Assembly: GCA_001442985.1 (NCBI GenBank)
Contig: LDYB01000012.1
Coordinates: forward strand, 1-64,000
DNA from: Armatimonadetes bacterium DC
GTDB taxonomy: Bacteria; Armatimonadota; Fimbriimonadia; Fimbriimonadales; GBS-DC
Length of the DNA stretch: 64,000 nt
Reading direction: 5' to 3'
Part shown: piece by piece, positions 38,537 to 42,059 of the stretch
How the letters are laid out: every line of letters starts with the position of its first letter
How positions within the stretch are numbered: position 1 is the stretch's first letter
Made by a program: the position numbers and the translations under genes
Notes under the pieces: generated by a model
What the model was told of the DNA's origin: nothing
What the model saw: only the letters and a program-made list of their open reading frames with translations
Database searches by the model: none

Positions 38537-39646
38537 TCACCGTCGCGGGGCGTCCAGCCGATAGCGCTGGTTCAGTCGATAGGGGCGAACTGAACCGCCT
38601 GAGCGCACGACGGCATAACGCATCACAACCCGCACGAAGGTAATCATCAGCCCAATCGCCAGCCCAATCATGCCTGCGCCCAGCCAGCGCCCGGTGGCGT
38701 CCGTAGCGTTGGCGAGCGCCCAGAAAAAGGCTCCTGATGCCAGTAGCCCACCTAATGCGCCCGCCAGCACCGCGGCTCTTGGGGGCAGGTTCGGCGTGCC
38801 GCGCGCCAGCCCGTAGCCCAGCACACTGCCCAGAACCGCAAACCCCAGCGCCCGCGCCATGAGGGGATTCCACGCAAAAAGCAGACTGAACATGCCCTGC
38901 GCCAGCAGCCCAGCGAGCGCGCCACCCCCCAGTCCGACCAGCATACCGCCCAGCACCCGCTTCCAGCCGAACGCTTCGGGAGGCACGCCGAACCAGCGCT
39001 GGGGCAGGCGCAGCCCCAGCGCAAGCATGGCTCCCAGCGCCGCGCCCCAGCCGCCCACAATCAGAAACACCTGCCAGCCCCAACCATCCCCTGCCAGAGG
39101 TTCCCAGTCCTCCACAGCAGTGGGATTGACCCGAATACGGCGCGACTCCTCACGGGGGTTAAGCGCGCCCGTGAACTCCCGAACGCGCCCGTTCACCACA
39201 ATCCGCAGGGTGTAAGGCGTGGGGTCAGGCGCGCCCTTGTTCGCGTAGTGATGCACATAAACCTGATAGTCGCCCTGCGGGGCGTGCCCAGGTCGCCAAT
39301 AGATATTCTCTACCGGGCGATCCGTCATAAAGTCAGCGTTGGCGTCCACATCCAGCTCGCCCCCGGAGGGCGACTGCCGATTGCGATAGGAGATGTGCGC
39401 CCCCGTGGGGTCAATCACATGCAGGTCTAAGTCGTTGAAGTTGTTCCACATCAGCGAGAACTGCGGGTCGCCGAACTGGGCGCCTGCCGCACGCAGGCGT
39501 CGGACAATCTCCGGGTCATGTTGAAACAGCAGGTTAGGCGTGTTTTGCTGGGGGGGCAGTATCGCCGCAAATAGGGCGTTCAGCACAAGCGCCGTTATCA
39601 GCGCACACAACGCTCCGACAGCCCCGAACAGCAGGCGCGTGCCCAT
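38537..39646 (-). CDS. Membrane protein with DUF2135 (YfaP-like) domain
   Basis: The 369-residue protein has an N-terminal helix (5-30) and a domain at 60-175 resembling DUF2135/YfaP (LMWNNFNDLDLHVIDPTG, GGELDVDANAD, VENIYWRPGHAPQGDYQVYVHHY). About five further transmembrane helices follow (193-213, 231-257, 265-283, 291-311, 321-342). The DUF2135 domain should sit outside the cytoplasm. It is the last gene of a three-gene operon with a vWA protein and a coiled-coil membrane protein. Function unknown. It ends 3 bp from the smpB stop on the other strand. Confidence 0.75.
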   Translation of the reverse strand: MGTRLLFGAVGALCALITALVLNALFAAILPPQQNTPNLLFQHDPEIVRRLRAAGAQFGDPQFSLMWNNFNDLDLHVIDPTGAHISYRNRQSPSGGELDVDANADFMTDRPVENIYWRPGHAPQGDYQVYVHHYANKGAPDPTPYTLRIVVNGRVREFTGALNPREESRRIRVNPTAVEDWEPLAGDGWGWQVFLIVGGWGAALGAMLALGLRLPQRWFGVPPEAFGWKRVLGGMLVGLGGGALAGLLAQGMFSLLFAWNPLMARALGFAVLGSVLGYGLARGTPNLPPRAAVLAGALGGLLASGAFFWALANATDATGRWLGAGMIGLAIGLMITFVRVVMRYAVVRSGGSVRPYRLNQRYRLDAPRR

Positions 39647-39649
39647 GGT

Positions 39650-41125
39650 TCACCTGCCGAAAAGCCAGCGTTTGAGCCGTTGCCCGAAACTCTCCTGCCT
39701 GTAGCCCCCTGAGGCGCCGGCGAAGCCCAGCTGGCTGGTCTGCTCGCCCCGAATGCTCTCCAGCAGGCTCTGGAAATAGTCCTGAAACTGCTTGTGCAAG
39801 CCAATCGCCTGCGTGCGTGCGGCGTCGAGGCGTGCTTTGAGGTCCTCCAGCTTTGCCTGTACCGTCTCGATTTCCATCCGCAGACTCGCGGCACGGTTGC
39901 CCAGAACAAACGCCTCCTGTACGGCTGGCTCCTTGCGGCGCTCTTCAATGTGCTGCCACATCAGATACTCGATATGCGCCTCGCGCTGGCGGATTTCCGC
40001 CTCACGCCAGCCTCGTACCGCCTTGTAGACCAGATAGGGCAAGCTCACAATCGCGCCCACTGCCAGGTAGACCCAGAAGGGGAACAGCCCCCTGCCGGTC
40101 TCCACCCCTTCCAGCTGCAGTTTGCGCAGGGCTTCCTCATGAAGCATCTGCAAGCCCAGAGCATCCACCATCACCATCGAGACGCCTATCAGCAGCGCGA
40201 GGGGCGACAGAAACACCACAGGGAACCAACGCTGGAGCAAGGGGATAGGCTTTACGGAGTCGCTTGCGTCGCGCTTTTCCAGCGCCTGCGCATAGGAGCT
40301 GGACAGGTTGTAATAAATATGCCCACCGAGCTTCTCCACAATATAGCCCACACCCGCGGCGAAGGCGACTACGAGCAGGTTGCGCAGGTTCAGCAGGTCG
40401 TCCAGCTTCAGAAAGCCCGTGATGACGCCGATGTTGACCCCCAGCAGCACGCCTGCTGTCAACGGCGCAAAGAATTCCATCAGAAGGGTTGTGAGCTGGG
40501 TGGGAATGTCTTGCTTGTAGCTGTAGGGTGGGGCAATTCCCTGCTCGCCGCAGATTTCTTCGGGGCGTGCGAAGGCGCTGCGCAGTGCCTGCTCCGCCAG
40601 TTCAGGCGACGCCTGTAAAGGCTCTGGAGTCGCCTTTTTGCGTTTCTTTTCCGCGGGTTCCTGCACAGGCAGGGGTAGACGCGCCTCGGAGAGCTTCTGG
40701 AAGAATCGCTCCTCGGTTTGGCGCAGCTCCTGACGCAGTTGCATCATGTGGCGCTCCAGTTCGGCACGTTGGGGTTCCAGTTCATGGCGCAGTTGCTCGT
40801 ACTCACGCATTGCGGGCAACACATGCGTGTAGAGCCGATAGAGCAGCTCATGACGCTCCGCTTCGTAGCCACGACTGCTCAGGTACTCACACGCCGCCTG
40901 CACCTGGCGCTCCAGTAACTGGAGCTCCAGCGCCCCATAGGGGGCGTCGGTGTAAGTGCCTTTTTCTGGCGGCACCTGCCAGAAGGGCGAACTGTTCTGA
41001 TAGGGCGCTATCGCCAAACTTTCCCGGTTCGCAGAATCCGCTGAGCTATCTGCGGCAGGCAACGAAACAACGGCTTGCTCCCCCGGGACGGAGCGCGAGT
41101 ACAGGTTCTCATCACGCGGTTCCAT
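39650..41125 (-). CDS. Coiled-coil membrane protein of unknown family
   Basis: A 491-residue protein: a low-complexity N-terminus, a coiled coil (about 68-150), a charged KKRKK patch, four transmembrane helices (218-240, 248-265, 301-325, 348-370) and a second coiled coil (372-470) with an ERRKEP break. Both coiled coils are predicted to face the same side, as the helix number is even. I do not recognise the family. It sits between the vWA gene (16-bp gap) and the DUF2135 gene (3-bp gap), so the three are surely co-transcribed. A Shine-Dalgarno AAGGAGGT stretch precedes it. Confidence 0.75.
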   Translation of the reverse strand: MEPRDENLYSRSVPGEQAVVSLPAADSSADSANRESLAIAPYQNSSPFWQVPPEKGTYTDAPYGALELQLLERQVQAACEYLSSRGYEAERHELLYRLYTHVLPAMREYEQLRHELEPQRAELERHMMQLRQELRQTEERFFQKLSEARLPLPVQEPAEKKRKKATPEPLQASPELAEQALRSAFARPEEICGEQGIAPPYSYKQDIPTQLTTLLMEFFAPLTAGVLLGVNIGVITGFLKLDDLLNLRNLLVVAFAAGVGYIVEKLGGHIYYNLSSSYAQALEKRDASDSVKPIPLLQRWFPVVFLSPLALLIGVSMVMVDALGLQMLHEEALRKLQLEGVETGRGLFPFWVYLAVGAIVSLPYLVYKAVRGWREAEIRQREAHIEYLMWQHIEERRKEPAVQEAFVLGNRAASLRMEIETVQAKLEDLKARLDAARTQAIGLHKQFQDYFQSLLESIRGEQTSQLGFAGASGGYRQESFGQRLKRWLFGR

Positions 41126-41141
41126 GAAAATGGCTACCTCC

Positions 41142-41828
41142 TTAGTGCAATCGGCTTTTGAGCTGGCGCACGGCGTCGCCCGTGTCGCTGGGACTGAACA
41201 GAATCAGCTTCTGCGCTTTCTCCAGCGGCTCCAGACTGCGCCGCATGGTCATCCGGTACTGCTCCTTTACGGGTCCGACGAGGATGGCGGAGAGTTTGTC
41301 CTGCTGAGCGAGTTGTTCCGCGATTTTGCGGGTCTGTTCGGGCGCGTGGTTCTCGCCGTCGGTGAACAGGCACAGCACAATCTGGCGGTTCTGGTTTTGC
41401 GGGTCCTGCACGAACTGGAGCATTTCGGTCAGGGGCAGGTCGGGGCGCGTGCCCCACGAACCCATCGCTTTGAGCACCCCGTCGCGATAAATCGAGTTCA
41501 GCTCCTCGCTACGCTGGGGGTATTTATCGGCGACCTCGCGCAGGTTCTCTGCGTAGCGCCAGATTTTGACCCGAACCGACTCGGCGAAGATACTGTCAAT
41601 CAGCTCGTTCATCACGCCAATACAGCGTCGGCGTTCCGCTTCGTTCATCGACTGGCTCACATCGAAGGCGACCGCGTAGGCGATGGGCTTGAGGCGGTTC
41701 TCCTGGGTGCGCTTGTAGAGCCACCAGCCTCCCCCAGCAAACGCCAGCAGCGCCAGAATCCCCAGCAACAGGGCAACCCAGCTGCTTTCGCCCTCACTTC
41801 CCTCATAACGGGTGCTATGTCTTGGCAT
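41142..41828 (-). CDS. Membrane-anchored von Willebrand factor A domain protein
   Basis: The 228-residue protein has one transmembrane helix (about 17-37) and a vWA domain with a full MIDAS metal site: DVSQS at 56-60, a downstream Thr (in LPLTEML) and LFTDGEN. It would bind Mg and a protein ligand. It lacks a C-terminal helix. It is the first gene of the operon. GGGGGAT before the start and TATACT boxes at about 41850 and 41896-41901 (minus strand) are likely promoter elements. Confidence 0.85.
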   Translation of the reverse strand: MPRHSTRYEGSEGESSWVALLLGILALLAFAGGGWWLYKRTQENRLKPIAYAVAFDVSQSMNEAERRRCIGVMNELIDSIFAESVRVKIWRYAENLREVADKYPQRSEELNSIYRDGVLKAMGSWGTRPDLPLTEMLQFVQDPQNQNRQIVLCLFTDGENHAPEQTRKIAEQLAQQDKLSAILVGPVKEQYRMTMRRSLEPLEKAQKLILFSPSDTGDAVRQLKSRLH

Positions 41829-42059
41829 GGCATCCCCCTATTGTGTCAGTATATGGGAATACGAAGTTGACGCCGTTGAAGTTCCCCACAGGTGTAGTAT
41901 ACCACAGCACGCCAGTGAAGACAATTCCAAGCAAGCCGCACAGAGGCTGCCTGGGAAAACGAGCAGGTTCACCCGTCGAGATTGACACAAGGATTACCAG
42001 ATTGCTTCCCAGTGCGAATTTCCCATGTGAATTCCGAGAATCGGTATGGAATAACCCCT

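Follow-up and report, generated by a model that had tools for sequence, protein, structure and literature searches.

A pair of neighbouring genes is the core of a conserved gene unit in Armatimonadota. One gene encodes a membrane-anchored vWA protein (V) and the other a four-pass membrane protein with long helical tails (M), while the gene for a third membrane protein, carrying a DUF2135 domain (D), is an addition in one clade and not an equal member of a symmetric trio. The V-M-D unit was found in the window, the stretch of 64,000 nucleotides of Armatimonadetes bacterium DC (contig LDYB01000012.1) analysed here, and it is real, conserved and apparently undescribed. An initial annotation of the window had called it a candidate undescribed membrane complex, a description that is upheld by the conserved adjacency of the genes, the lack of a known family for M and the failure to find a paper on it. 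The pair, with or without D, is tentatively interpreted as a trans-envelope sensing and signalling complex that would signal through M.

Gene organization and distribution in Armatimonadota

The genes and a promoter-like site are located on the reverse strand of the window.

41896..41924 (-): promoter-like site, TTGTCT-17-TATACT with TG before the -10 element, about 70 bp upstream of V
41142..41828 (-): V, vWA protein of 228 aa
39650..41125 (-): M, 491 aa, predicted to have a helical N-terminal tail, four transmembrane (TM) helices and a helical C-terminal tail
38537..39646 (-): D, 369 aa, predicted to have a first TM helix (TM1), an external DUF2135 beta-sandwich and five Gly-rich TM helices

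The three genes are co-directional, each is preceded by a plausible ribosome-binding site, and the gaps of 16 bp between V and M and 3 bp between M and D are as initially annotated. The promoter-like site comes from a consensus scan only, which gave three sites in the region against 0.9 expected. An Rfam search was empty. The immediate neighbours of the operon are SmpB and pseudopilins (Pfam), the pseudopilin operon being divergent from V-M-D as had been stated. Inclusion of the pseudopilin operon in the unit was considered and rejected because the flanking genes differ in most relatives. Just past the end of the window (contig C12:64149-64868 of the same genome, G000) is the genome's only protein-kinase (PF00069) match.

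M is present in a single copy in its own genome (2.85 Mb). A scan of genome contigs with the single M protein gave no match and was insensitive, as relatives exist. Profiles of 12 and 18 M sequences detected M in 25 and 33 of 291 Armatimonadota genomes, respectively, and a third, wider profile was used outside the phylum. From the 291 genomes, 37 M loci were fetched and examined with our own ORF calls (70-aa floor): 14 from the window's family (f1), 11 from f13 (seven trios and four second pairs), nine from f3 and one each from f19, f12 and f28. The counts exclude M matches shorter than about 1000 bp, G018 (a weak match in a 203-aa frame, E 2e-4) and the second G011 fragment. In G011 (L013 and L060), M is apparently split near its C-terminal end into two overlapping frames, by an assembly error or a frameshift.

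The initial annotation had made the unit depend on its genes being neighbours in other genomes, and V does accompany M throughout: a V-type gene is on the same strand as M in all 37 loci and directly adjacent to it in 36. Adjacency was recomputed jointly for 33 loci, 32 of which are adjacent or overlapping, the other four having been counted separately. In L202 about 790 bp separate the two genes. Overlaps of 4 bp are frequent, and the order is M then V in L205-L208. Mean column identity across the M family is about 19%, and the weakest f3 M matches are credited only through the V gene found beside them. The flanking genes mostly differ among relatives and no gene family is general to the flanks, implying that the V-M linkage does not come from common neighbourhood ancestry. 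Some close relatives do have flanking genes in common, as would be expected if unrelated single-function genes were kept together by chance or slow rearrangement. However, this explanation is hardly tenable, being already contradicted by the adjacency data, in which V and M are found together in six families, in both gene orders and often with a 4-bp overlap, while the flanks vary.

D is beside M in 22 of the 37 loci (14 in f1, one in f12 and seven in f13) and absent from 15. The three-gene operon of the initial annotation is therefore found in other genomes, but the conserved core is only V-M. In the M tree, the D-bearing loci form one clade of 17 representatives (support 98/99), two of which (G181 and G211) are without D, a distribution that fits one gain and two losses. 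The G181 locus (L050) is a V-M pair of the window-family type in a genome of another family and nests inside g5, a genus of the window's family, possibly as a result of transfer or of a contaminated assembly. D-related loci occur in Fimbriimonadales, Armatimonadetes and Chthonomonadaceae, including HRbin15 and KatS3mg016/018.

Five of the nine f3 V-M pairs (L051, L198, L199, L204 and L209) are near a gene for a TrwB/VirD4-like coupling ATPase and a Replic_Relax gene, some also with serine recombinases; this is a raw count for which no enrichment is claimed. These neighbours suggest a role other than signalling. The pair may have arisen on mobile elements, serving for example surface exclusion, mating contact or membrane-level conflict, and have been kept on chromosomes, where it gained D. 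Such an origin is improbable: of 18 genomes sampled from the window's family, 14 have M, always as V-M-D and with no such mobile-element genes adjacent, PADLOC matches are weak and of the coiled-coil type, and an f3 M gave no match in a plasmid collection.

Outside the phylum, no M was detected in 29 genomes holding D-type proteins or in 119 Planctomycetota. The one match in 96 Verrucomicrobiota is confined to 84 residues of coil in a frame of 905 aa and was taken as spurious. This search covered 242 distinct genomes (two searched twice), mostly Planctomycetota and Verrucomicrobiota, with a divergent profile and no positive control, so that its negative outcome carries little weight. Judged by these profile matches, M is likely restricted to Armatimonadota for the phyla sampled, others being hardly covered.

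Predicted structures and topology of V, M and D

V matches the Pfam VWA family (PF00092, E 3e-6, above the cut-off) and has one N-terminal TM anchor at about residues 16-34. Its MIDAS site is complete, with the residues of the DxSxS motif (D56, S58 and S60), the threonine (T127) and the second aspartate (D157) all present, so that the initial description of a membrane-anchored vWA domain with a complete metal site is accurate. Across 23 diverse V proteins, D56, S/T58, T127 and D157 are kept in all 23 and S/T60 in 21, despite identities of about 15-20% among them, and divalent-metal binding is predicted from these residues. Lipobox-like signals are found in about ten of the 23, all divergent relatives of the window V, of which five are strict (L201, L202, L203, L208 and L209) and about five relaxed (L046, L198, L199, L200 and L204). 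Since the domains of lipoproteins are extracytoplasmic, these signals favour a vWA domain outside the cytoplasmic membrane. The charges flanking the TM segment of the window V (net -1 on the N-terminal and +3 on the C-terminal side) by themselves would put the domain inside, and the flanking charge bias over 25 V proteins is indecisive. The vWA domain is thus probably outside, facing the DUF2135 domain and opposite the coiled coils of M, as drawn from about ten of 23 relatives and not from the window V.

Hydropathy of 23 M homologues reveals four hydrophobic segments, and the main features of M are the following.

40685..40933 (-): M residues 65-147, N-terminal long helices, coiled-coil-like and predicted cytoplasmic (AlphaFold2 model; side from loop charges)
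40028..40474 (-): M residues 218-366, four TM segments (hydropathy)
40163..40165 (-): M D321, at the predicted outer end of TM3 (conservation)
39725..40015 (-): M residues 371-467, C-terminal long helices, predicted cytoplasmic (AlphaFold2 model; loop charges)

The loop charges in the 23 homologues favour an N-in/C-in topology, and both helical tails are therefore probably cytoplasmic. The long coiled coils of the initial annotation are recovered as predicted helical tails, but their placement on the same side as the vWA domain, if that was meant, does not agree with a vWA domain favoured outside. The AlphaFold2 model of M (18 sequences) has a mean pLDDT of 79. It gave no Foldseek match with E <0.001, and its best match in a VIA search (Z 9.2) is to generic long helices, including chemoreceptor models, which does not show a new fold. 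M belongs to no Pfam or NCBIfam family and has only sub-threshold, mostly coil-type matches. A match to a known transporter family, which the initial annotation had named as fatal to the unit, was thus not among the results.

Position 321 of M is acidic (D or E) in 22 of the 23 homologues. It was spotted while the alignment was scanned for conserved acids, so the proposal that D321 is a ligand for the MIDAS metal of V is drawn from the same data that reveal its conservation. With its four TM segments, its helices in the cytoplasm and its conserved acid at the membrane edge, M would also suit an energy-coupled unit like TolQ/ExbB or Mot, in which it would be an ion-driven motor and V and D the outer parts, and ExbB (9ddo, Z 6.3) is low in the VIA list. 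However, a Z of this size falls in the range stated for helical bundles that are unrelated, M has no MotA_ExbB Pfam match at E 1, no ExbD/TolR-type partner is adjacent, and D321 is at the edge of the TM segment rather than in the middle of the membrane. Such a motor is very improbable.

D has two recognizable regions.

39125..39472 (-): D residues 59-174, DUF2135/YfaP-like domain (hhalign to YfaP; weak matches to subtilase beta-jelly rolls)
38648..39079 (-): D residues 190-333, 5-TM module in common with FHA receptors (hhalign)

The YfaP-like DUF2135 domain of the initial annotation is confirmed by profile homology, although the score of the window D against PF09906 (19.8 bits) is under the 22-bit gathering score. 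The D family profile aligns with E. coli YfaP at an hhalign probability of 97.8% (E 8e-13, 32% identity over 90 columns), and a Gemmataceae relative passes the gathering score (22.7). Among 20 homologues, 36 residues of D are invariant, and in the DUF2135 domain five acids, D72, D74, D99, D101 and E113, do not vary. The 5-TM module aligns with that of FHA receptors (alignment A9; hhalign 97.5%, E 8e-12, 113 columns), both being Gly-rich, which inflates such scores. The AlphaFold2 model of D (20 sequences, mean pLDDT 87) gave no Foldseek match with E <0.001, a search in which effectively only residues 59-178 were tested. The predicted topology, with TM1, an outer domain, five TM helices and the C-terminus inside, fits the FHA domains carried by relatives. 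The window D itself has no FHA match in Pfam.

Relatives of D and comparison with known systems

The external domain of D is homologous to E. coli YfaP (DUF2135, b2225), a 258-aa protein that sits with yfaQ, yfaS, yfaT and yfaA; D instead has the 5-TM module and V and M as neighbours. Papers on DUF2135, or on YfaP with von Willebrand, were not found in a literature search whose coverage left out subscription journals, and no function for YfaP was found in papers that name it. Weak matches in sequence (Tk-SP, 3afg, E 0.13) and fold (KP-43, 1wmd, Z 5.4, 30% identity over 80 residues) relate the domain to the C-terminal beta-jelly roll of subtilases, whose protease domain D lacks. The Tk-SP jelly roll holds two Ca2+ sites (PMC12664993), making Ca2+ binding a candidate property of D by analogy.

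D-type proteins are distributed more widely than M. Proteins from Verrucomicrobiota and Planctomycetota (L077, L080-L084, L086, L098, L117 and L120) resemble D over nearly their full length, with TM1, DUF2135 and the TM region, and differ by a C-terminal extension that is FHA-like by eye; L082 has no Pfam FHA match. Some are encoded near TerY/PP2C or GAP1-N2 genes, and no M was detected in their genomes. The DUF2135 domain alone occurs in other groups, including Poseidoniales archaea. The Armatimonadota receptors L210-L215 have the Gly-rich 5-TM module in common with D and carry FHA without DUF2135, while D carries DUF2135 without FHA. Each has one FHA domain or two, in many cases together with a Cys-rich segment; a second FHA protein is encoded beside several of them, and L215 also has a vWA protein beside it.

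Domain fusions connect these parts. In a Verrucomicrobiota D-type protein (L083:7434-10268), whose gene adjoins a second D-type gene, a vWA domain (PF00092, E 4e-17) is inserted in DUF2135. Read from sequence by eye, L216 consists of vWA, 5-TM and FHA parts and L217 of TM, DUF2135, TM and FHA parts. In other phyla, D-type genes are near TerY-like vWA and PP2C genes (L084, L081 and L114), and in Gemmataceae they are near GAP1-N2, PP2C and vWA genes (L098, L117 and L120). The Gemmataceae set (L098, L117, L120 and L106) comprises GAP1-N2, a 539-aa protein, a D-type receptor, vWA and PP2C; it is largely conserved, with not every member present everywhere.

The MoxR-vWA ternary and GAP1 DO-GTPase systems (PMC7159879) combine vWA and membrane components as V-M-D does, and the Gemmataceae arrangement, with GAP1-N2 adjoining D-type genes, is a further likeness to the latter. 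Membership of V-M-D in the MoxR-vWA, TerY or GAP1 systems was rejected because their defining neighbours are absent in the window: neither a MoxR AAA+ ATPase, a GTPase or GAP1 gene nor a PP2C phosphatase is beside the operon.

A possible role in envelope sensing

In the preferred reading, sensing and signalling across the envelope, V would expose its metal-dependent vWA domain on the outer face of the cytoplasmic membrane, held by a TM anchor or, in many distant relatives, by a lipid, and D would present its jelly-roll domain on the same side, anchored by a 5-TM module otherwise found in FHA signalling receptors. The MIDAS metal would bind an acidic ligand, possibly D321 of M or the cluster of acidic residues in D. 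This contact would be altered by envelope stress or by a ligand, and the four-pass M would relay what happens outside by a change in its long helices in the cytoplasm.

The fusions in L083, L216 and L217, which link vWA, DUF2135, the 5-TM module and FHA, argue for such signalling, as do the constant strand and close linkage of V and M, the retained MIDAS residues, the lipoboxes, the N-in/C-in topology of M, the D-type genes near vWA and PP2C genes and the confinement of D to one clade. Against it, the fusions are found in D-type relatives and not in V or M themselves, no kinase or phosphatase adjoins the operon, and the genome's only protein-kinase match is about 22 kb away. The genome's five FHA matches, on two contigs, do not adjoin the operon either. 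The inward-pointing charge of the window V and the lack of a significant fold match for M also weigh against signalling.

Adhesion commonly involves vWA and jelly-roll domains tethered by a lipid or a TM segment, and no kinase, ATPase or regulator adjoins V-M-D, both of which would fit a structural role. The complex would then link the cytoplasmic membrane with a layer further out (the cell wall, the outer membrane or a surface layer), the helices of M serving as an internal scaffold that passes no signal. Such a role is rather unlikely, as D has its 5-TM module in common with FHA receptors, and in M one position at the membrane edge stays acidic and the tails are predicted inside.

A broader version of the signalling interpretation, put forward with reserve, takes V-M as the heart of a transmembrane system that has not been described before and that occurs in Armatimonadota alone or chiefly there. 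Its outer MIDAS-containing vWA protein would be read out through the acid of a dedicated four-TM coiled-coil transducer, and the system would serve mobile elements as well as chromosomes, the latter with D as an extra sensor. If this were true, vWA-based signalling would here do without a MoxR-type ATPase encoded next to it and would depend on two invariant partners joined by a further sensor on the outside, in a phylum whose genetics is little developed. A direct test could target two residues, one in the MIDAS site of V and the other the conserved acid of M. In several phyla, vWA and DUF2135 stand as outer domains ahead of one and the same 5-TM module, which would also give a functional lead for DUF2135. 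In genus g5, a further vWA protein is encoded a few kb from the operon (L053:6893-7942 and L054:4134-5186), and the L053 copy has a lipoprotein-like start.
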